Assembly (NCBI GenBank): GCA_015063585.1
Contig: SVTW01000002.1
Span: 23,449-87,448, forward strand
DNA: 64,000 nucleotides
Direction: 5' to 3'
Source: Oscillospiraceae bacterium
Lineage (GTDB): Bacteria > Bacillota > Clostridia > Oscillospirales > CAG-272
Shown: in pieces, positions 22,394 to 46,001 of the stretch
Layout of the letters: each line of letters starts with the position of its first letter
Numbering within the stretch: the first letter of the stretch is position 1
Program-made: the position numbers and the translations under genes
The notes under the pieces: generated by a model
The model's input: the letters and a program-made list of their open reading frames with translations, nothing else
Databases searched by the model: none
What the model was told of the DNA's origin: nothing

Positions 22394-23984
22394 GCTGTTC
22401 GGAAAAAAGAAAAAAGAACGCGAAGCCGAAGACCAACAAATAGCCGAGGAGCAGGCGCGAAAGGAAGCCGAAGCGAAGGCAGCGGCTGAGGCGGAGGAGC
22501 AAGCAAAGGCGGCCGCCGAGGAACGTGCGCGCCGCGAGGCAGAGGAAAAGGCGGCTGAGGCGGCAATGAAAGCGGCGGAGGCTGCGCGTCTTGCCGCGGA
22601 ACAAGAGCGTATCGCATCGGAAGAACGCGCGCGAAAGCTTGCCGAGGAAGCGGCTGCCAAAGAAGCGGCTGAGGAGGCACGCAGAATTGCGGAAGAAAAG
22701 GCACGCGCGGTTGCCGAAGAAAAAGCAAAGCGCGAAGCCGAGGAACAGGCAAAGCGCGAAGCCGAGGAACAGGCAAAGCGCGAAGCCGAAGAACAGGCAA
22801 AGCGCGAAGCCGAGGAACAGGCAAAGCGCGAAGCCGAAGAACAGGCAAAGCGCGAAGCCGAAGAACAGGCAAAGCGCGAAGCCGAAGAAAAAGCAAAGCG
22901 CGAAGCCGAAGAACAGGCAAAGCGCGAAGCCGAAGAACAGGCAAAGCGCGAAGCCGAGGAACAGGCAAAGCGCGAAGCCGAGGAACAGGCAAAGCGCGAA
23001 GCCGAAGAACAGGCAAAATGCGAAGACGAGGCGTCAGAGGACGCATTGGTTTCTGAGGAAAGCAAGAAAAAGGAGAAGAAATCCTTTTGGAGCCGCGTAA
23101 AAGCAGGCTTGAATAAAACCAAAAACGCGCTGTTCGGTCAGATCGACGACCTTTTGAAGAATTTTGTTAAGGTGGACGAGGATCTTCTTGAGGAGCTTGA
23201 GGAGGTTTTGATCTGTGCCGACGTTGGAATCAATGCCGCTGAGCAGATCATTGATGAATTGCGCGAACAGATCAAGGACGGTCGTCTGAAGGAAAAGGAA
23301 CAGGTCATGACAGCTCTGCACGGCATTTTGGAGGGCATGATCGGAGAGGGAGAACCCCTCAATCTTTCCACTACACCGAGCGTGATCCTTGTAATCGGTG
23401 TCAACGGAGTTGGAAAAACCACCTCGATCGGTAAGATCTCCAATCAGCTCCGTCGGGCAGGCAAAAAGGTTGTGGTCGCGGCGGCAGATACCTTCCGTGC
23501 GGCGGCGATCGACCAGCTTGCGGTTTGGTGTGAGCGTGCCAAGGTGGATCTGATCCGTCAAAATGAGGGCAGTGATCCTGCGGCGGTGGTTTATGACGCT
23601 TGCCATGCCGCGAAGAACAAAAACGCGGACGTTTTGATCATTGATACCGCAGGACGCTTGCATAATAAAACCAATTTGATGAATGAGCTTGCAAAGATCA
23701 ACCGCGTGATCGACCGTGAATTGCCGGGCGCTGCGCGCGAAAACCTTTTGGTTCTTGACGCCACAACCGGTCAGAACGCGATCTCGCAGGCAAAGGAGTT
23801 CAAGAACGCGGCGGCACTTACGGGGCTGATCCTCAATAAAATGGACGGCACCGCAAAGGGCGGAATCGTGCTCTCGATCCGCCAGGAGTTGAACATTCCC
23901 GTGAAGTTTATCGGTGTCGGAGAAAAGCTTGACGATATGCAGGCGTTTGATCACAAGGAATTTGTGGACGCGCTCTTTGAATAA
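22377..23984 (+). CDS. ftsY: Signal recognition particle receptor FtsY with long repetitive N-terminal region
   Basis: [38 protein letters not shown] motifs. Confidence 0.94.
22717..23028 (+). repeat. Tandem 24-bp repeat (unit ~GAAGAACAGGCAAAGCGCGAAGCC), about 13 copies
   Basis: Encodes AEEQAKRE octads with two EEK variants and a terminal AKCE; read directly. Confidence 0.95.
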
Positions 23985-35527: not shown

Positions 35528-38299
35528 ATGTCTTTGATTACGAAAATGTTCGGAACCTACAGCCAGCGTCAGCTTAAAAAGCTGACCGTTATTGCCGACC
35601 GCATTGATGCGCTGGCGGAAAAGTATGCCGCAATGACCAATGAGGAGCTGCAGGGCGTGACCCCCGCTTTGCGCGCCCGTTTGGCGGCAGGGGAGACCAC
35701 CGACGATATTTTGACCGATGCGTTTGCCGCGATCCGTGAGGCAGACACCCGCGTGCTTGGCAAGCGACCCTTCCGCGTGCAGATCCTTGGCGGAATTGTT
35801 TTGCATCAGGGGCGTATTGCCGAGATGAAAACAGGTGAGGGTAAAACGCTTGTTGCAACGCTTCCCGCATATCTCAACGCACTTTCGGGCAACGGTGTTC
35901 ACATTGTAACCGTGAACGATTATCTGGCGCGCGTCGGTGCCGAGGAGATGGGGCGTGTGTATGAATTTATGGGGCTGACAACGGGGCTTGTTGTCCACGG
36001 ACAGAGCCACGAGGAAAAGCAGGCGGCGTACCGTGCCGACATTACCTACGGTACCAACAATGAGTTCGGCTTCGATTATCTCCGCGATAATATGGCGGTA
36101 TATAAACGGGATATGGTTCAGCGCGGTCACGTTTTCGCGATTGTGGACGAGGTCGACTCGATCCTGATCGATGAAGCGCGTACGCCTCTGATCATTTCGG
36201 GATCGGGCGAAAAGGCGACCGATCTTTATGAGCGTGCCGAGCGGTTGGTGCGCGGAATGCGCAAGTTTGTGATCAAGGAGCTTGACAATAAAAAGGATCA
36301 GGACGACATCAACGCAGACTATGTGGTTGATGAAAAAGCCAACCATGCGGTCTTAACACCGCAGGGTGTGAAAAAGACCGAGCAGTTTTTCGGAATTGAA
36401 AATCTTTCGGATATGGAAAACGCAATGATCGCGCACCACGTAAATCAGGCGATCTCGGCACATGGCTGCAAGCACCGCGACGTGGACTACGTTGTAAATG
36501 AAAAGGGTGTTGTGATCGTAGATGCCTTTACGGGGCGTTTGATGCCCGGCAGACGCTACTCCGACGGACTCCATCAAGCAATTGAAGCCAAGGAAGGCGT
36601 GCAGGTACAAAAAGAGAATAAGACGCTTGCAACCATCACCTTCCAAAACTATTTCCGCATGTACCGCAAGCTTTCGGGTATGACGGGAACGGCACTGACC
36701 GAGGAGAGTGAGTTCCGTGAGATCTACCGCCTTGACGTGGTTGAGATTCCAACCAACAAGCCGATGATCCGCATTGACCACCCCGACGTTGTCTACCGCG
36801 GAATGGAAGGAAAATACCGCGCGATCGTGGAAAAAATTCGCGAATGTCACGAAAAGGGACAACCGGTTCTGGTTGGTACGGTTTCGATCGACAAATCCGA
36901 GGCGCTCTCTGCGCGTTTGACGAAGGCGGGAATCCGCCACACCGTGCTCAACGCCAAGCATCACGAAAAAGAAGCCGAGATCGTTGCGCAGGCAGGTAAA
37001 TTCGGCGCGGTTACCATTTCCACCAATATGGCGGGACGCGGAACCGATATTCTGCTCGGCGGCAATCCCGAGTTCATGGCAAAAGCCGAGATGCGCTCAC
37101 GCGGATATGACGAGGAGCTGATTCAGCATTGCACCGGCTTTACCAATACCGATGATGAGGCATTGGCGGAAGCACGCGAAACCTTCCGCGCACTTGTTAA
37201 GCAGTACCGCGAGGAGATCGAGCCCGAGGCGAAGCGCGTGCGTGAGGCGGGCGGTCTCTTTATTCTGGGTACAGAGCGCCACGAAAGCCGACGCATCGAC
37301 AATCAGCTGCGCGGTCGTGCAGGCCGTCAGGGGGACCCGGGTGAATCGCGCTTCTTCCTCTCCATGGAGGACGATCTGATGCGCTTGTTCGGAACCGATC
37401 GGATTCAGGGCATTGTGAGCGCGCTGAAAATCAAGGAGGACGAGTGTGTGGACCTCAAGGTCCTGTCGGGCGGTATCGAGCGCGCACAGAATCATTTGGA
37501 GGAAAACAATTTTAAGCGCAGAAAGTACGTTTTGGCATACGATGACGTTATGAACCATCAGCGCACCATCATCTACAAGCAGCGTCAGGACGTGCTTGAC
37601 GAGGAGGACGTTTCGGAAACCATTCGCAAAATGTTCCTTTCCTCGGTTGAAAGCGCGGTTGCCGAATTTACCAACGGCGATGTTCCCGATGAATGGGATT
37701 TTGACGGCTTGCGCAGTTATTTTGCGGGAACGCTTACAACCGATTCGGATTTCCACTACACGCAGGAGGAGTTGAACCATCTGGAGCGTGAGTCAATCAC
37801 AGAGCTGCTCAGCGAGCGTATTCTCGCGCGCTATGAGGAGAAGGAAAAGCTGTTCGGTGCCGAGATGCTGCGTGAGCTGGAGCGCGCGATTCTGTTGCGT
37901 CAGGTCGATCTGGCATGGATGGAGCATCTTGATACGATGGAGGATTTGAAGGGAAGCGTGGGGCTTCAGGCATATGCCCAGCGTGACCCCATTACCGAAT
38001 TCCGTATCCAGGGAGCCGAGCTGTTTGAAGGAATGGTGGAGGAGATCCGTCAAAAAACGGTACGCGCTTTGCTCTCTCTTGTTCCGCAGGAGAAGCCGAT
38101 CAAGCGTGTGCAGGTCGCAAAGCCGATCTTTGCGGGTCCCGCATCGCCCGTTGTAAAACACAAAAAGGCACCCGTAGCCGGACGCGCGCCCACAACCTTT
38201 GTAAAATCCTCGGCGGATATCGGGCGAAACGATCTTTGTCCTTGCGGAAGCGGCAAAAAATATAAAGCATGCTGCATGCGCAAGAACGCAGGAAATTAA
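35528..38299 (+). CDS. secA: Preprotein translocase ATPase SecA
   Basis: EMKTGEGKTLVATLPAYLNAL, GRAGRQGDPGESRFFLS, C-terminal CPCGSGKKYKACC. Confidence 0.97.
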   Translation: MSLITKMFGTYSQRQLKKLTVIADRIDALAEKYAAMTNEELQGVTPALRARLAAGETTDDILTDAFAAIREADTRVLGKRPFRVQILGGIVLHQGRIAEMKTGEGKTLVATLPAYLNALSGNGVHIVTVNDYLARVGAEEMGRVYEFMGLTTGLVVHGQSHEEKQAAYRADITYGTNNEFGFDYLRDNMAVYKRDMVQRGHVFAIVDEVDSILIDEARTPLIISGSGEKATDLYERAERLVRGMRKFVIKELDNKKDQDDINADYVVDEKANHAVLTPQGVKKTEQFFGIENLSDMENAMIAHHVNQAISAHGCKHRDVDYVVNEKGVVIVDAFTGRLMPGRRYSDGLHQAIEAKEGVQVQKENKTLATITFQNYFRMYRKLSGMTGTALTEESEFREIYRLDVVEIPTNKPMIRIDHPDVVYRGMEGKYRAIVEKIRECHEKGQPVLVGTVSIDKSEALSARLTKAGIRHTVLNAKHHEKEAEIVAQAGKFGAVTISTNMAGRGTDILLGGNPEFMAKAEMRSRGYDEELIQHCTGFTNTDDEALAEARETFRALVKQYREEIEPEAKRVREAGGLFILGTERHESRRIDNQLRGRAGRQGDPGESRFFLSMEDDLMRLFGTDRIQGIVSALKIKEDECVDLKVLSGGIERAQNHLEENNFKRRKYVLAYDDVMNHQRTIIYKQRQDVLDEEDVSETIRKMFLSSVESAVAEFTNGDVPDEWDFDGLRSYFAGTLTTDSDFHYTQEELNHLERESITELLSERILARYEEKEKLFGAEMLRELERAILLRQVDLAWMEHLDTMEDLKGSVGLQAYAQRDPITEFRIQGAELFEGMVEEIRQKTVRALLSLVPQEKPIKRVQVAKPIFAGPASPVVKHKKAPVAGRAPTTFVKSSADIGRNDLCPCGSGKKYKACCMRKNAGN

Positions 38300-38302
38300 C
38301 GG

Positions 38303-39043
38303 GTGACAGACATGGGATTTGGTTATCTTTTGATCGGATATCTGATCACGTTTGTGCTGTATATGACGGTCAACGGACTTGGATTTGGAGGCTTGGCGCT
38401 TTTGCTTGGATATGGGCTGATGTTTTATGCCCTTGGGGAGCTATGCCGCTACCACCGCGCATTTCTTTACGCAAAGTGGCTCCTCGTACCGTGCTTTCCG
38501 CTTGCACTGTACGATCTTTTGGGCACTCTTGATGAAATGCTTTTGTGGGGGCTTCCGATCTACGGTTCTGCCGTGACAAATGTGACCGATTGGCTCACGT
38601 TCCTGCTCCTGATCGCATTTAATCTTGCGATGCTGTACGGTATCCGCATGATCGCGACCGACGTTGGAATTGGACATATGGCAACTACCGCAATGAGAAA
38701 TTCCTTTTTCGTAGGGCTTTATGCCATTCTTTACCTGTTTGTAAGACTGCCGATCGCGGCACTGGACGGTGCGCGCCCCTATTTGGGAATTGCTTTGATG
38801 CTTTGTAATTTGATGTGGATTTTTTTCAATCTGCTTCTCCTGCTCTCCTGCAACAAAAATATTTGCCGCGCGGGAGATGAAGATCAGCCCGCAAAGCCCT
38901 CTCGGTTTGCGTGGGTCAATCGAATCGGGGACGCTTACGAGCGCAACCGTCAAAAGGCGATCGACAATACCACACGTGAGGCGGAGGCGGTTTTGCGTCG
39001 ACGTAAGGAACGGCGTGAATCCAAAAAGAAAAAGAAAAAATAA
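38303..39043 (+). CDS. Hypothetical multi-TM protein with basic C-terminus
   Basis: Hydrophobic helices; KKKKKK tail. Confidence 0.5.
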   Translation: MTDMGFGYLLIGYLITFVLYMTVNGLGFGGLALLLGYGLMFYALGELCRYHRAFLYAKWLLVPCFPLALYDLLGTLDEMLLWGLPIYGSAVTNVTDWLTFLLLIAFNLAMLYGIRMIATDVGIGHMATTAMRNSFFVGLYAILYLFVRLPIAALDGARPYLGIALMLCNLMWIFFNLLLLLSCNKNICRAGDEDQPAKPSRFAWVNRIGDAYERNRQKAIDNTTREAEAVLRRRKERRESKKKKKK

Positions 39044-39073
39044 TCGACCGCTCTCGGAAAGGAGAAGGCAACC

Positions 39074-40495
39074 ATGCAAGAAAAAAATAAAATGGGCAGA
39101 GGTTTTCTGTTAATCCTTTTGTCCGCGCTCTTTCTGTTTAATCCCGTGATCGGCTTTGTCGATCCGGTGCCAAACTGCTTCGGCTATCTGCTCCTTTGTC
39201 TTGGACTGTCACAACTTGCCGATCTTTCCGAATCGGTTTCCGAATCGCTTCGCCGTTTTCGCATTTTGTTGCTTTTGAGCCTTGCGCACATGCTTGGCAT
39301 CTATTTGATCTACGGTGTAATGGGAGCACGCTCCGCTGAAATGAATCGCCTGGAACAGCCGGTTTATATTCTTTTGGCGTCCTTTTTGTTCCTTTTGGCG
39401 CAGTGGTATTTTCTGATCCCCGCAATGCGTGATCTTTTCAAAGGAATCCGGACCTTAGCCGAGGCGCAGGGGGCTGACGCTCTGACGCGTGAAAACAGAA
39501 AAGGGAAGACTCCGATCGATCGAATCCGTACCGCAACAACGCGCTTTGTGATCCTGTCCTCGCTTTTCGCGATGCTTCCCGAGTTGACGATCCTGACATC
39601 CTTCGAATATGAAGTTGAAAATCGGTATTTCCCGTTTGATTGGTATCGTTTTGTCGGACTTTTTCGGATTTTGTTTGGCTTTGCCGCATTTGTCGTTGGA
39701 ATACTGTGGCTGATTCGTATGATTCGGGTTTGTATCAAAGCCATGAAGGACAAGCCATGGCTCGATGCACTCCATGAAAGATACTGCCGCGAGGTCTTGC
39801 CGCAAACAGGCATGTTGACGGTACGGCGCTTCTCCGGTGTGTTTTTCCTGTTTCGGCTTGCGTTGATCTTTGCGATCAGCCTGCGTTTTGACAACCAATC
39901 CATCTTGCCCGCATTCTTTTTTGCAATCCTTGCGATCTTCGCAATCTATAGCCTGGGTGATCTTGTTTCCCGCGAGGCACGCCTGCCTGTTTTCATCGCA
40001 TCGGTGTGGCTTGGCGGTGTTGGTGTGGCACAGATCTTTTTTACAGCCGATTATCTCAAGCATTTTCTGCCCGAGGCCTCGCTTTACCAGCCCGATGCTT
40101 ACCGCGCATTTTTGATTGTGCGCGCGATTGACGTGGCAGAGGTCGTGCTGACTTTTGTGCTTGTTTGGATTCTTTTGCGCTTTTTTATGTCGATCGTCAC
40201 GTCACACACCGCGGTCGATTACGGGTCCAATGACGCGCGCTATCTATCCGCGGACGCAACCAAGCGCCTGCACCGTGAATTCCGTGTACGCCATTATCTC
40301 TCTTTGATCTTTTTCTTTATCGGCACTTGCTTTGGAATTGTTGACGCGTGGTTTCGTTTGGAGTATCCGTGGATGTGGATTCCCGCCGCACTTTTTACCG
40401 TAGTTGGAATCGCTTGCGCGTATTCCTTCCTGTTTGAATTAAAAACGCAGATCCAATATACGTATCGTTCAAATGGCATGAATAAAAATCAATGA
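39074..40495 (+). CDS. Hypothetical multi-TM protein
   Basis: Many hydrophobic helices; RBS GGAAAGGAG. Confidence 0.55.
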   Translation: MQEKNKMGRGFLLILLSALFLFNPVIGFVDPVPNCFGYLLLCLGLSQLADLSESVSESLRRFRILLLLSLAHMLGIYLIYGVMGARSAEMNRLEQPVYILLASFLFLLAQWYFLIPAMRDLFKGIRTLAEAQGADALTRENRKGKTPIDRIRTATTRFVILSSLFAMLPELTILTSFEYEVENRYFPFDWYRFVGLFRILFGFAAFVVGILWLIRMIRVCIKAMKDKPWLDALHERYCREVLPQTGMLTVRRFSGVFFLFRLALIFAISLRFDNQSILPAFFFAILAIFAIYSLGDLVSREARLPVFIASVWLGGVGVAQIFFTADYLKHFLPEASLYQPDAYRAFLIVRAIDVAEVVLTFVLVWILLRFFMSIVTSHTAVDYGSNDARYLSADATKRLHREFRVRHYLSLIFFFIGTCFGIVDAWFRLEYPWMWIPAALFTVVGIACAYSFLFELKTQIQYTYRSNGMNKNQ

Positions 40496-40508
40496 CGCGG
40501 CACATACT

Positions 40509-40535
40509 TTTTTTGTAATTCCCAATTACAAAAAA
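40509..40535 (+). promoter_or_regulatory. 5'UTR hairpin TTTTTTGTAATT-CCC-AATTACAAAAAA abutting the SD of the N/Q-rich ORF
   Basis: 12-bp perfect stem, GGAG at 40536-40539. Confidence 0.75.
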
Positions 40536-40548
40536 GGAGTGCAAAACA

Positions 40549-40728
40549 ATGCAAAACAACAACCAAAACTACAACAACCAGAACAACAACCAGAACAACA
40601 ATCAGAACAACAACCAGAACAACAATCAGAACAACAACCAGAACAATAACCAGAATAAGAACCAGAACAAGAACCAAAACAGCAATCAGCAAAATCAAAA
40701 CAACCGAAACAGCGGCAACGTTCGCTGA
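40549..40728 (+). CDS. 59-aa Asn/Gln-rich small protein
   Basis: ATG with SD AAAAAGGAG 9 nt upstream; MQNNNQNYNNQNNNQ...NSGNVR, 35 Asn and 14 Gln of 59; below the ORF-track size cutoff. Confidence 0.7.
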   Translation: MQNNNQNYNNQNNNQNNNQNNNQNNNQNNNQNNNQNKNQNKNQNSNQQNQNNRNSGNVR

Positions 40729-40733
40729 ATCGG

Positions 40734-40753
40734 TCCTCTCCTTCGGGGGAGGA
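40734..40753 (+). promoter_or_regulatory. Intercistronic UUCG-tetraloop hairpin TCCTCTCC-TTCG-GGGGAGGA
   Basis: 8-bp stem (one G-U), no T-tract. Confidence 0.7.
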
Positions 40754-40805
40754 TACATAAACCGCGCGTTGATTGCTTTTTCATTGAACGAAAGGAGGTG
40801 TTTTC

Positions 40806-43202
40806 GTGTTTGAGCTTGACCGCATTCCCGTCGCCGTGCTGGAAGCCTTGGAAAAGCACGGGTATGGGAGAGACGACGTTTTAATTGCCGCACGGTGTGA
40901 CCGTGACCGAACATTTAAACCCGCCGAGGTTTACCTGTTTGCTACATCTGAACGCCTGTTGATTCTCGAAGGGGCATTTGAAACGCTGTTGGCATCGGCG
41001 CGCAACCCCAAAACAGCCCTCGCAGGAACAGAATCAACCTTCTCGGAACAGGATTTTCGGGAATATGATATGCGCGCCCACCGCGGTTTTCGCGTGGAGG
41101 AGCTCCTGTCGTCGGGACGGCTGACCGCCAAGGTGCGCCCTGCGGATCGGAAGGAAAAGGAAACCGAAACCGAAAACAAAGGCGTAGCGGACCCCCAATG
41201 TGGGGAGACGGAATCCGAAACCGGCACAGCAGCGTGCGATGAGACGGTTTATCTTGCCGCTTTTACAAATTTCTGCAAAGCCTCCATGTTTCTCTTTGCC
41301 AAGTATGCGGATCGGCTGGCAGACGGTAAGGATTTGGAGATCGACCCGAAGGATGATCCTAAATCCAAGCGCTGTCCCAAATGCGGGTTGCGTTATCCCG
41401 ATCTGAACCGTCGTATCTGCCCGCACTGCATGGAGAAGGGAAAGCTCTTCCGCCGTTTTTCGGTCTTTTTCCTGCGCTATCGGTTGTCCATTGCCTTGAT
41501 GGTGCTTTCCTTGGTGGTGCTCACTGTAATGAGTATCATTGCCCCTTACCTCTCCAGCGGATTTTTCTATGATGAGGTGATCTATGGAACGGGTGAGTTC
41601 GCGGGGCAGATCCTGACCGTTTTGTTTTTGATCGTGGCAACCCGTATTTTGCGGCTGATCGCAACTATGTTTAACAATCTTCTCACCTCCACCATTGCCG
41701 CAAAAATGGTGTTTGACCTCAAAAAAACAATTTTTTCGTCGATCGAGCGTCTCTCGCTCAGCTTTTTTACGGGACGACAGACCGGTGGGCTTATGACGCA
41801 GGTCAATGAGGACGCCAACACGATCTACGGCTTTTTCTGTGACGGAGTGCCGTATCTGATCGTCAATTTGGTACAGGTTGCGGTGCTTGCCGTCCTGCTC
41901 TTTACCATTCAACCGATCCTCGCGTTTCTGACCCTGATCACGGTGCCGGTTTTCATGTTTCTGCTTGCAAAGATCTTTCGCCGCGAGCGGATGCTCCATG
42001 CAAAACGATACACCAATTCGCGACAGATGAATTCCTTTTTGGCGGACGTTTTCTCGGGTATGCGCGTTGTAAAGGCTTTTTCACGCGAGCAAGCCGAGAT
42101 CACGCGCTTTACGGGACGAAACCGCAACCTCGCAACGAGCGAGAAGCGGCTGTCACTCTTTATGAATTATGCGTGGCCGCTTTCCGGTTTTGTGCTCTTT
42201 CTCGGCAATATCATTGCCTGGGGTGTGGGCGGTTGGATGGTCATAAAGGGCTACAGCGGCTTGACCTACGGCATGCTGCTCACGTTCATTGCTTATATGA
42301 ATATGATCTTTGACCCGCTGATCTTTTTTACCGATTTTATCGATTGGACTGCCGATTGCTCCAACTCGCTCCAGCGTTTGTTTGAGATCATGGACGCACA
42401 GCCCGACGTGAGCGAGAAGGAAAATCCCGAGCGCCCCGATCCGCTTGGCGGCAGAGTGGAGTTTGACGACGTATCCTTTTCTTACCAAAAGGGTAAGAAG
42501 ATTATCGATCACGTCAGCTTTGACGTTCCCGAGGGGCATATTCTCGGTATCGTGGGGCACACGGGCGCGGGAAAAAGTACGCTTGCCAACCTTTTGATGC
42601 GCATGTACGACGTTGACGAGGGTGAGATCCGTATCGGCGGCTATCCCGTGCGTGATCTTGCGCTTTCCACGCTCTACCAAAATATCGCGATCGTATCGCA
42701 GGAGACCTATCTCTTTATGGGCTCGATCCTCGATAATATTCGATACGCAAGACCCGACGCTACCTTTGAGGAGGTGTTGGAAGCGTCTAAGTGCGCGGGC
42801 GCACATGATTTTATCATGAAATTACCCGATGCTTATGAAACACGGATTGGATTTGGATATCAGGATCTTTCGGGAGGCGAGCGGCAACGCGTTTCGATTG
42901 CGCGCGCGATTTTGAAGAATCCGAAAATTCTGATCCTCGATGAAGCAACTGCGGCAATGGATACGGGAACCGAGCGAAAGATCCAGGAGGCACTGTCTCA
43001 GTTGATTCGCGGAAAAACCACCATTATGATCGCCCACCGTCTTTCCACCCTAAGAGATGCCGACGAATTGGTTGTCATTGAACGGGGAAAGGTCGCCGAG
43101 CGCGGAACGCATAGCGAGCTGCTTGCGCGCGAGGACGGTGTATACAAAAAACTCTATACCTTGCAGGATGAAGCGCTTCGCAGTGCGGGTATCCGCGAGT
43201 AA
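40806..43202 (+). CDS. ABC exporter (fused TMD-NBD) with N-terminal PH-like/zinc-ribbon extension
   Basis: CPKCGLRYPDLNRRICPHC; Walker A GHTGAGKST; LSGGERQRVSIARA. Confidence 0.9.
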   Translation: MFELDRIPVAVLEALEKHGYGRDDVLIAARCDRDRTFKPAEVYLFATSERLLILEGAFETLLASARNPKTALAGTESTFSEQDFREYDMRAHRGFRVEELLSSGRLTAKVRPADRKEKETETENKGVADPQCGETESETGTAACDETVYLAAFTNFCKASMFLFAKYADRLADGKDLEIDPKDDPKSKRCPKCGLRYPDLNRRICPHCMEKGKLFRRFSVFFLRYRLSIALMVLSLVVLTVMSIIAPYLSSGFFYDEVIYGTGEFAGQILTVLFLIVATRILRLIATMFNNLLTSTIAAKMVFDLKKTIFSSIERLSLSFFTGRQTGGLMTQVNEDANTIYGFFCDGVPYLIVNLVQVAVLAVLLFTIQPILAFLTLITVPVFMFLLAKIFRRERMLHAKRYTNSRQMNSFLADVFSGMRVVKAFSREQAEITRFTGRNRNLATSEKRLSLFMNYAWPLSGFVLFLGNIIAWGVGGWMVIKGYSGLTYGMLLTFIAYMNMIFDPLIFFTDFIDWTADCSNSLQRLFEIMDAQPDVSEKENPERPDPLGGRVEFDDVSFSYQKGKKIIDHVSFDVPEGHILGIVGHTGAGKSTLANLLMRMYDVDEGEIRIGGYPVRDLALSTLYQNIAIVSQETYLFMGSILDNIRYARPDATFEEVLEASKCAGAHDFIMKLPDAYETRIGFGYQDLSGGERQRVSIARAILKNPKILILDEATAAMDTGTERKIQEALSQLIRGKTTIMIAHRLSTLRDADELVVIERGKVAERGTHSELLAREDGVYKKLYTLQDEALRSAGIRE

Positions 43203-43220
43203 ACGAAAGGAGTGAATCGA

Positions 43221-43775
43221 ATGGACAAGCGTCCGCCTATGCCGCCGTCGGATGGACGGCACGAAAAGAAACAGGAGCGCACGTTGGCTGAAATTTCGGT
43301 TACGAATTGGCTCACGCCCGAAAATGCTTCGTTTTTTATGAAAAACGGCTTTCTTTACATCAAGCATGACGCGAAGGAGCAACGCGCGTTTCTTTGTCGA
43401 CAGTTTCCGTTTGAACTTTTGTGGGAATTCATTTCTGTGTTGGACGATTCGCAGCAGGAGATCGGCATCATTCGCCGCCTCGATGATTTTACGGACGAGG
43501 CGCGCGATATGATCGCAAATGAGCTCAAACGCCGCTATTACGCCCCTGTGATCAAAAGCATTCTGCAGGTCAAGGAGCGTTACGGCTTCTCTTATTGGAA
43601 GGTGAAAACCGAAGAAGGCGACGTTTCCTTCACCCTGCACGACACCTTCCGCAGCATCATTCGTTCGGGCGACCGACGCCTCATTCTGTTAGATGTGGAC
43701 GGAAACCGCTTTGAGATTCCCGATGCGGAGGCATTGGATCGAAAGAGCTACAAAAAAATTGAACTTTACCTGTAA
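43221..43775 (+). CDS. DUF1854 family protein
   Basis: ISVTNWLTPENASFF, LLDVDGNRFEIPDAEALDRKSYKKIELYL; sits between two ABC exporter genes. Confidence 0.75.
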   Translation: MDKRPPMPPSDGRHEKKQERTLAEISVTNWLTPENASFFMKNGFLYIKHDAKEQRAFLCRQFPFELLWEFISVLDDSQQEIGIIRRLDDFTDEARDMIANELKRRYYAPVIKSILQVKERYGFSYWKVKTEEGDVSFTLHDTFRSIIRSGDRRLILLDVDGNRFEIPDAEALDRKSYKKIELYL

Positions 43776-43787
43776 GGGGGGATTTTC

Positions 43788-46001
43788 GTGGAAAAAATGA
43801 ATCCGCGCCTTCTTCAGGAGCTGAAAAAGCTGGACCCAAGTCCTGACCCCGAGCAGACCGTAACGGTATTGAGCGGTAATCTGTCCTTGACGGATTCCAA
43901 TGCGCACGCGAATACGGTTCTTGTGTTGATGACGCAGGAGTTGCGCGTTTACACCGACGGAAAGCTGACGCACCGCGAGAACAACGAGAACATGGAACGG
44001 CTTCATGTGATTTCGGGCGTCGGATGCGTCTTTGTAGAATACGAGCGAAAAAGCGATGGGGAACACGTGCTTGTTGCGCGCGCCGATAGCCGTTATCGCG
44101 GGGCGATCGGGCAGAGCGTCAAGCGTGCGAATCACTATCTGCGGTTTGGAAATCGCGATTTCTCGCGCTTCTCAAACGCGGGCGGACGGTTGTGCCCCAA
44201 ATGCGGCAAGCCGTTTCCGCGCGGCTCGCAAGCCTGTCCGCGCTGTGCCTCAAAGAAGAAGGTTCTTTTGCGTCTGCTATCGCTGGCGCGCCGTGAATGG
44301 AAATATATCGCGGTTGCTGCCGCGCTGTTCTTCCTGATCACGGGGGTGAGCGTGATCACGCCTTATATCAATCGCGTATTGGTGGACGAGTATATCCAAA
44401 ATACCGATGGCAATGTCTTTCTCATGGGCTTTTTGGGTGTGATTTTTTCAATGCTTCTGGTCAATCTTTTGCGCCGCTTGTTTTCAATCGTGCGCGGCTA
44501 TTTTCTCACGATTGCGGGAAATAACCTGATCGTGCGATTGCGGGATATGGTGTTTGAAAAGATCCAACAGCTCTCCATCGCGAAGATCTCGCGCCGTACC
44601 TCGGGAGAATTGATGAAGCGTGTCAATGGCGACACGCGAACCATCAAACAGTTTTTGGTCAACCATATGCCGAATATTCTGGAGCAATCGCTTCTCCTGA
44701 TTGCAATTTCGGCACTTCTGTTTTTCTATGATTGGCGTTTAGCACTCCTGATCCTCGTTCCCGCGCCCTTTGTCGCGCTCGCTTTTCGCCTGTTTTGGAG
44801 AAAGCTCCGCAACATGTTTAACCGTCGTTGGGAGCTCAATTCCCGCGCTAACGCGATCCTGCATGATATTTTTTCGGGTATTCGCGTTGTAAAATCCTAC
44901 GGTATGGAAAAACGCGAGGAAGAACGCTTTGTGGAGATCTCCGCCAAGGAGCGTGAGGCACAGCTTCGCATCGAACGCTTTTGGGCGGTCTTTATGCCTC
45001 TCCTTCATTTTTTAATGGGGGTTGGCGAGTATATCCTGTTATATTATGTCGGTCAAAAAATGCTTGACGGTGTGATGACAGCCGGCGAAATGTCTCAGTT
45101 TTCCTCCTATGCCGGCATGATCTACGGTCCCTTGAATGCTCTCATGGTATTCCCGCGTCAGTTTATGAACATGATGACCTCGGTTACCCGCGTTTATGAG
45201 ATCATGGATGAAACGGTGGATATCCGCGATTCGGAAAAGCATGAAAAGCTTGATTTTAAAGGATACATCGATATCGAACACGTGTCGTTTGGATATGAGG
45301 ATTCCGATGAGGTCTTGCGTGACATCAGTCTGCATGTCAAGCCGGGTGAGTTTATTGGCTTGGTTGGAAAATCGGGTGTGGGAAAATCCACACTGATCAA
45401 TCTGATCATGCGGATGTATGACGTAGATGAAGGCGCGATCCGCATTGATGGAATCGATATCCGCGATATTCCGCAAGAGGACCTTCGTGCGCGAATGGGT
45501 GTTGTATTGCAGGAAAACTTCCTCTTTACCGGATCGGTGTGGCAAAACCTGACCTATGCGAAGCCCGACGCAACACACGAAGAGGTGATTCAAGCCGCCA
45601 AAACAGCCGGTGCGCATGAATTTATCATTCGGCTGCCGGACGGCTACAATACGTACGTAGGTGAGAAGGGTCACACGCTCTCGGGCGGTGAACGCCAACG
45701 CATTTCGATTGCTCGTGCGTTGCTGCACGATCCCAGAATCCTCATTTTGGACGAGGCGACCGCCTCGCTTGATACCGAAACCGAGAAGCTGATTCAGGAC
45801 GCGTTGCAGGCGCTTTCAGCAGGCCGCACCACAATTGCCATCGCGCATCGACTTTCGACGCTCCGCAACGCTACACGGCTGGTTGTGATGGATCAGGGCG
45901 GTATTGCCGAGGTCGGCACACACGATGAGCTGATGGCGAAGCAGGGCATCTATTACGGTCTTGTAATGGCACAGCGAGACATGAGTAAGATGGACGCTTG
46001 A
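43788..46001 (+). CDS. ABC exporter (fused TMD-NBD) with N-terminal PH-like/zinc-ribbon extension
   Basis: CPKCGKPFPRGSQACPRC; GKSGVGKST; LSGGERQRISIARA. Confidence 0.9.
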   Translation: MEKMNPRLLQELKKLDPSPDPEQTVTVLSGNLSLTDSNAHANTVLVLMTQELRVYTDGKLTHRENNENMERLHVISGVGCVFVEYERKSDGEHVLVARADSRYRGAIGQSVKRANHYLRFGNRDFSRFSNAGGRLCPKCGKPFPRGSQACPRCASKKKVLLRLLSLARREWKYIAVAAALFFLITGVSVITPYINRVLVDEYIQNTDGNVFLMGFLGVIFSMLLVNLLRRLFSIVRGYFLTIAGNNLIVRLRDMVFEKIQQLSIAKISRRTSGELMKRVNGDTRTIKQFLVNHMPNILEQSLLLIAISALLFFYDWRLALLILVPAPFVALAFRLFWRKLRNMFNRRWELNSRANAILHDIFSGIRVVKSYGMEKREEERFVEISAKEREAQLRIERFWAVFMPLLHFLMGVGEYILLYYVGQKMLDGVMTAGEMSQFSSYAGMIYGPLNALMVFPRQFMNMMTSVTRVYEIMDETVDIRDSEKHEKLDFKGYIDIEHVSFGYEDSDEVLRDISLHVKPGEFIGLVGKSGVGKSTLINLIMRMYDVDEGAIRIDGIDIRDIPQEDLRARMGVVLQENFLFTGSVWQNLTYAKPDATHEEVIQAAKTAGAHEFIIRLPDGYNTYVGEKGHTLSGGERQRISIARALLHDPRILILDEATASLDTETEKLIQDALQALSAGRTTIAIAHRLSTLRNATRLVVMDQGGIAEVGTHDELMAKQGIYYGLVMAQRDMSKMDA

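Follow-up and report, generated by a model that had tools for sequence, protein, structure and literature searches.

Within the window that we analysed, a 64,000-nucleotide stretch of an Oscillospiraceae genome, a 59-amino-acid ORF on the plus strand (ATG at 40549, stop codon at 40726–40728) encodes a product in which 49 of 59 residues are Asn or Gln (N/Q), and comparison with related sequences indicates that this ORF is a genuine protein gene, recurrent in dozens of Clostridia. Because the gene is real and recurrent and its promoter looks spore-specific, its product is probably a small protein of the developing spore. We lean slightly towards placing it in an undescribed class, present in many Clostridia, of forespore-expressed, near-pure Asn/Gln mini-proteins that would serve either as an amide-nitrogen store replacing gamma-SASP or as prion-like material shaping the spore core. 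We found no description of such mini-proteins in the literature searched; their genes readily escape notice, being shorter than ORF length cut-offs and hidden by low-complexity filters. The gene and its surroundings have the following features:

35528–40495, plus strand: secA, TM246 (38303–39043) and TM473 (39074–40495), in an order conserved in the genus and at 14 loci of other genera.
40480–40508, plus strand: predicted sigma-G/F-type forespore promoter, with GAATA (40480–40484), an 18-bp spacer and CATACT (40503–40508).
40513–40531, plus strand: 5′ stem-loop TTGTAATT-CCC-AATTACAA, just 5′ of the Shine–Dalgarno sequence (SD).
40530–40539, plus strand: SD AAAAAAGGAG, 9 nt 5′ of the ATG, with an SD-like sequence at 47 of 48 homologous loci.
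40549–40728, plus strand: N/Q-rich 59-amino-acid ORF, identified from its sequence and from the 48 homologous loci analysed.
40733–40754, plus strand: hairpin GTCCTCTCCTTCGGGGGAGGAT, 4 nt past the stop codon, terminator-like and with no T-run.
40806–46001, plus strand: ABC1-DUF1854-ABC2 operon, a neighbour in the genus only and outside the cassette.

We retrieved 80 DUF1854 loci from relatives, as well as 40 regions chosen by N/Q codon patterns, and analysed a set of 48 loci with an N/Q-rich ORF, comprising 20 from the genus, 14 other secA-linked loci (34 secA-linked in all) and 14 unlinked loci. The ORFs encode 35–78 amino acids; all 48 begin with ATG and 47 have an SD. Neither the length nor the repeat unit (NQ, NNQ, NNNQ or NQQ) is constant across the family; the composition is conserved, with a median N/Q content of 74–80%. 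Net charge is positive in nearly all members (median +3 to +4), and the substitution tolerated most often is to Lys. Searches of Pfam-A (E up to 0.01) and NCBIfam (E up to 0.001) gave no family match for the N/Q protein.

The original prediction had described the ATG at 40549, the SD and a 59-residue Asn/Gln-rich product, all of which we recovered with an identical translation, and had argued for a protein gene as opposed to a mere microsatellite. Positions 40555–40689 form a tandem repeat with a 12-bp unit (11 copies, 84% matches), so the ORF is a DNA repeat too, and the openness of the N/Q frame alone is no proof of coding because the other frames are frequently open (36 of 96). Both observations speak for a repeat that is not translated, a candidate that we rejected as extremely improbable because the N/Q frame keeps its ATG and SD while the repeat units change, and because synonymous variants are in excess. 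The Asn codons of the genus comprised 391 AAC and 198 AAT, synonymous C/T variants that far outnumbered the other one-step transitions at these codons (19 to Ser and 12 to Asp); substitutions to Lys numbered 54, and those to Thr, Ile and His 2 each. We attach no P value to these counts because the codons are not independent, repeats being prone to copy themselves. A check for orthologues carrying an out-of-frame repeat, which the original prediction had named as its refutation, found none among the 48 loci. The window has another tandem repeat, of 24 bp (22713–23029; 13 copies, 94% matches), which gives rise to EEQAKREA repeats in the N-terminal region of an ORF that we named an FtsY-like SRP receptor from a reading of its sequence.

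Upstream of the ORF lies a promoter motif whose −35 element falls within the last TM473 codons. Scored as GNATA-N17..19-CATAMT within at most 150 bp upstream, the motif was perfect at 23 of the 34 secA-linked N/Q loci (with a spacer of N17/18) and had at most one mismatch at 30 of them; the corresponding values for the unlinked loci were 3 and 11 of 14. Shuffled sequences contained perfect motifs in 0–0.2% of cases and one-mismatch motifs in about 3%, and among 565 control genes of the same loci none had a perfect motif and 13 had one with a single mismatch (Fisher P versus controls, about 4e-36 at linked loci and 1.5e-14 at unlinked ones). The statistics for the linked loci are post hoc because the motif was noticed there before scoring, and the unlinked loci, together with the gerA genes described below, provide the more independent support. 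Several AT-rich genera have a weaker −10, AATAAT.

The whole assembly contains 10 perfect sites, compared with 5 for a reversed control pattern; one of the 10 lies 5′ of the window ORF and another 28 bp upstream of a germination gene of the GerA family. Of 14 gerA genes of the genus with a placeable start, 9 had the motif either intact or with a single mismatch (P = 5e-11 versus control genes). The remaining intergenic perfect sites of this genome precede genes for a 73-residue protein of unknown function, a DUF2383-like protein (match below cut-off) and enolase (L292, L293 and L294). The gpr promoters of the genus share the −35 and the spacing of the motif and differ at the −10, and the alpha/beta SASP genes of the genus, with a −10 that is related but different, failed as a positive control for the exact motif. 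In B. subtilis, gerA operons are sigma-G dependent. From the differing −10 elements of the gpr and SASP genes, the gerA result and a published comparison with B. subtilis (PMC3789822), we conclude that the upstream motif looks like a forespore promoter of the sigma-G/F type, a label that does not choose between the two sigma factors.

Hairpins flank the ORF on both sides. Stems of at least 7 occurred on the 5′ side at 50% of genus loci and 79% of other secA-linked loci, compared with 9% and 27% of shuffles; the 5′ stem-loop showed no enrichment at the unlinked N/Q loci. On the 3′ side, stems of at least 7 were present at 79–100% of loci, compared with 27–33% of shuffles, and T-runs followed the hairpin at a minority of loci. 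What follows the 3′ hairpin in the window (40733–40760), and at the corresponding position of most loci of the genus, is a conserved TACATA, not a T-run. The order of putative promoter, leader, ORF and terminator-like hairpin is best explained as a self-contained, single-gene transcription unit. A short ORF rich in two residues, with an ABC operon 77 bp downstream and a hairpin between them, could also be a leader peptide that senses the supply of Asn and Gln and attenuates the downstream operon. We consider such a leader very improbable and rejected it, given that the ORF has a promoter of its own and exceeds known leader peptides in length, that the operon occurs without the ORF in three sister species, and that there is no fixed co-directional downstream operon, the downstream genes varying among loci or being convergent (L157 and L171).

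The original prediction had implied a link between the N/Q ORF and DUF1854 ABC operons, and an ABC-DUF1854-ABC operon does lie downstream of it in the window (this operon resembles cyanophycin-associated models of NCBIfam, with scores below their cut-offs). DUF1854 (PF08909) was found in 82 of 147 relatives' genomes of the family, and among DUF1854 loci the N/Q ORF occurred only where DUF1854 follows secA-TM246-TM473. Within about 7 kb per side, contig permitting, none of the 41 DUF1854 loci retrieved from other genera had the ORF, nor did the genus's second DUF1854 paralogue, and on this failed co-occurrence test we rejected a DUF1854/ABC-associated substrate. The usual site of the N/Q ORF is directly 3′ of secA-TM246-TM473, with or without DUF1854 downstream: two loci of the same genus have it there without the DUF1854 operon (L179 and L180; L178 and L182 stop at the contig edge), as do 14 loci of other genera, at which the next gene mostly encodes a UvrD/PcrA helicase. 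The protein gene of the original prediction stands; the link to DUF1854 operons that it had implied does not. The secreted-matrix or export roles that it had mentioned as speculation found no support, no signal peptide being visible in the N/Q protein and the promoter motif suggesting the forespore; gel or amyloid behaviour is conceivable.

In three sister species (L058, L072 and L075) the ORF and its promoter are both missing, the flanking genes are intact and ABC1 directly follows TM473; at 14 further loci the N/Q gene sits away from secA. To judge from these arrangements, the gene behaves as a removable single-gene cassette. Five of the unlinked N/Q genes (L158, L163, L172, L173 and L174) lie immediately 3′ of genes from a single protein cluster, of which the member tested (L172) has Big_9 and SLH surface domains. 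TM246 and TM473 (38303–40495) are conserved membrane proteins encoded after secA in many genera; neither matched a Pfam or NCBIfam family above cut-off, and a fold search with a predicted model of TM473 (mean pLDDT 87.8) found no PDB match at E ≤ 0.001.

A strict N/Q codon pattern was present in 39 of 198 genomes of the family, representing 27 of 71 genera, and about 31 of the 39 proved on inspection, counted by hand, to contain real N/Q ORFs. Scattered members occur in other families of Clostridia (L314, L321–L325 and L329), and a phylum-wide sample gave 23 candidate members in 300 as raw pattern matches. The genome of the window itself has homologues of gpr, gerA and sigF/sigG. Genes for alpha/beta SASP (PF00269) are present in most of the genus, elsewhere than at the N/Q locus, and were not found in genome G000 (86.5% complete). 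Homologues of sigF/sigG were present in 31 of 31 N/Q-positive family genomes, and the N/Q pattern in 0 of 18 genomes without them (P = 0.04), an association that has the expected direction but is weak and for which the strict pattern misses many N/Q genes. The presence of N/Q genes showed no correlation with that of gpr (24 of 31 versus 152 of 198 family genomes), which weakens a simple split between spore formers and non-spore formers. Three members of the genus have gpr and gerA and lack the cassette, which is therefore dispensable.

The missing correlation with gpr would also suit a small protein of growing cells, for instance one that works with the Sec system or with TM473, preceded by a motif that is coincidental, and at least 21 loci have the N/Q ORF directly after secA-TM246-TM473. 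We think such a protein quite unlikely in light of the motif statistics and the gerA control, the 14 N/Q loci apart from secA, most of which retain the motif, and the occurrence of TM473 without an N/Q ORF.

We instead propose, with even confidence, that the gene specifies a forespore-made N/Q polymer that has a gamma-SASP-like storage role and is non-homologous to SspE. Expression in the forespore is, on the sequence evidence, very likely; the cassette would be transcribed there from its putative sigma-G/F promoter. The product would be a small, slightly basic and probably disordered Asn/Gln polymer, and we infer that it accumulates in the spore core. There it might act as an analogue of gamma-SASP (SspE), that is, as a bulk filler and a reserve of amide nitrogen and amino acids; for this storage role in itself we regard the chances as about evenly split. 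After germination the reserve would be degraded by a protease other than GPR, the cleavage pattern of which ([TSN]E[FIVLY][AVG][SG]E, of the TEFASE type) occurs in 0 of the 48 N/Q proteins.

The near-pure N/Q composition of these proteins is of a kind typically seen in prion-like sequences. The promoter evidence fits equally well a forespore-made structural protein, in which the N/Q polymer gels or condenses in the spore core or at a spore membrane and has a mechanical or scaffold function instead of serving as a reserve; the membrane protein TM473 often adjoins the gene, and the Asn-rich repeats of the C. difficile protein GerG gel in vitro (PMC5241399). We consider a structural function unlikely, as those repeats are not needed for GerG function (PMC5241399), and as the many breaks by Lys/Arg, together with the changes in repeat unit and length, speak for composition and against a packed structure. 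The positive net charge nearly throughout the family and the tolerance of Lys, together with the forespore-type promoter, might alternatively indicate a nucleic-acid-binding spore protein, a disordered basic peptide that coats DNA or RNA beside alpha/beta SASP; the low charge density and the lack of matches to DNA-binding families lead us to doubt this strongly.

Gamma-SASP is an abundant amino-acid reserve in Bacillus spores. According to one report, none of the clostridial genomes examined contains SspE (PMC3533761), which raises the question of what reserves the spores of Clostridia lay down and use up in outgrowth; the recurrent N/Q cassette, with its predicted forespore promoter, offers a specific candidate that can be tested. 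If the proposal is true, the family would also supply naturally occurring, short proteins of nearly pure N/Q for studies of low-complexity proteins in bacteria. Like SspE, the N/Q protein is small and amide-rich, with a promoter of the forespore sigma-G type (assigned by sequence motif alone, sigma-F being possible as well) and a bulk role that for the N/Q protein is conjectural. Unlike SspE, it is far purer in N/Q and has no GPR site, and the two have no sequence similarity or shared family-model match.

The genes for alpha/beta SASP resemble the N/Q genes in encoding small spore-core proteins (putatively so for the N/Q genes) in the same genomes and in having a 5′-UTR hairpin just before the SD. 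They differ in belonging to a conserved DNA-binding family (PF00269, with no Pfam match in the N/Q protein), in their −10 and in their long conserved leader. In the genus (L191–L211) this leader extends over ~130 nt upstream of the genes (CAATARTRACAGAG...GACTCAATGATATAGATAAACGA) and ends in the hairpin GAACGGT..ACCGTTC just before the SD; four sequences gave no convincing Rfam match, and the leader is possibly an undescribed regulatory RNA element. GerG is a spore protein under sigma-E (mother cell) control, contains about 30% Asn along with Met and Pro in the repeat GMPNNMSNNMNSNM, and is found only in C. difficile (PMC5241399). It is longer than the N/Q protein and differs from it in sequence and promoter type, and neither sigma-E control nor an Asn/Met/Pro-rich central repeat between unique ends was found for the N/Q gene. 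In composition, however, GerG is the closest experimentally studied protein, being likewise Asn-rich and of low complexity, with repeats that vary in number.
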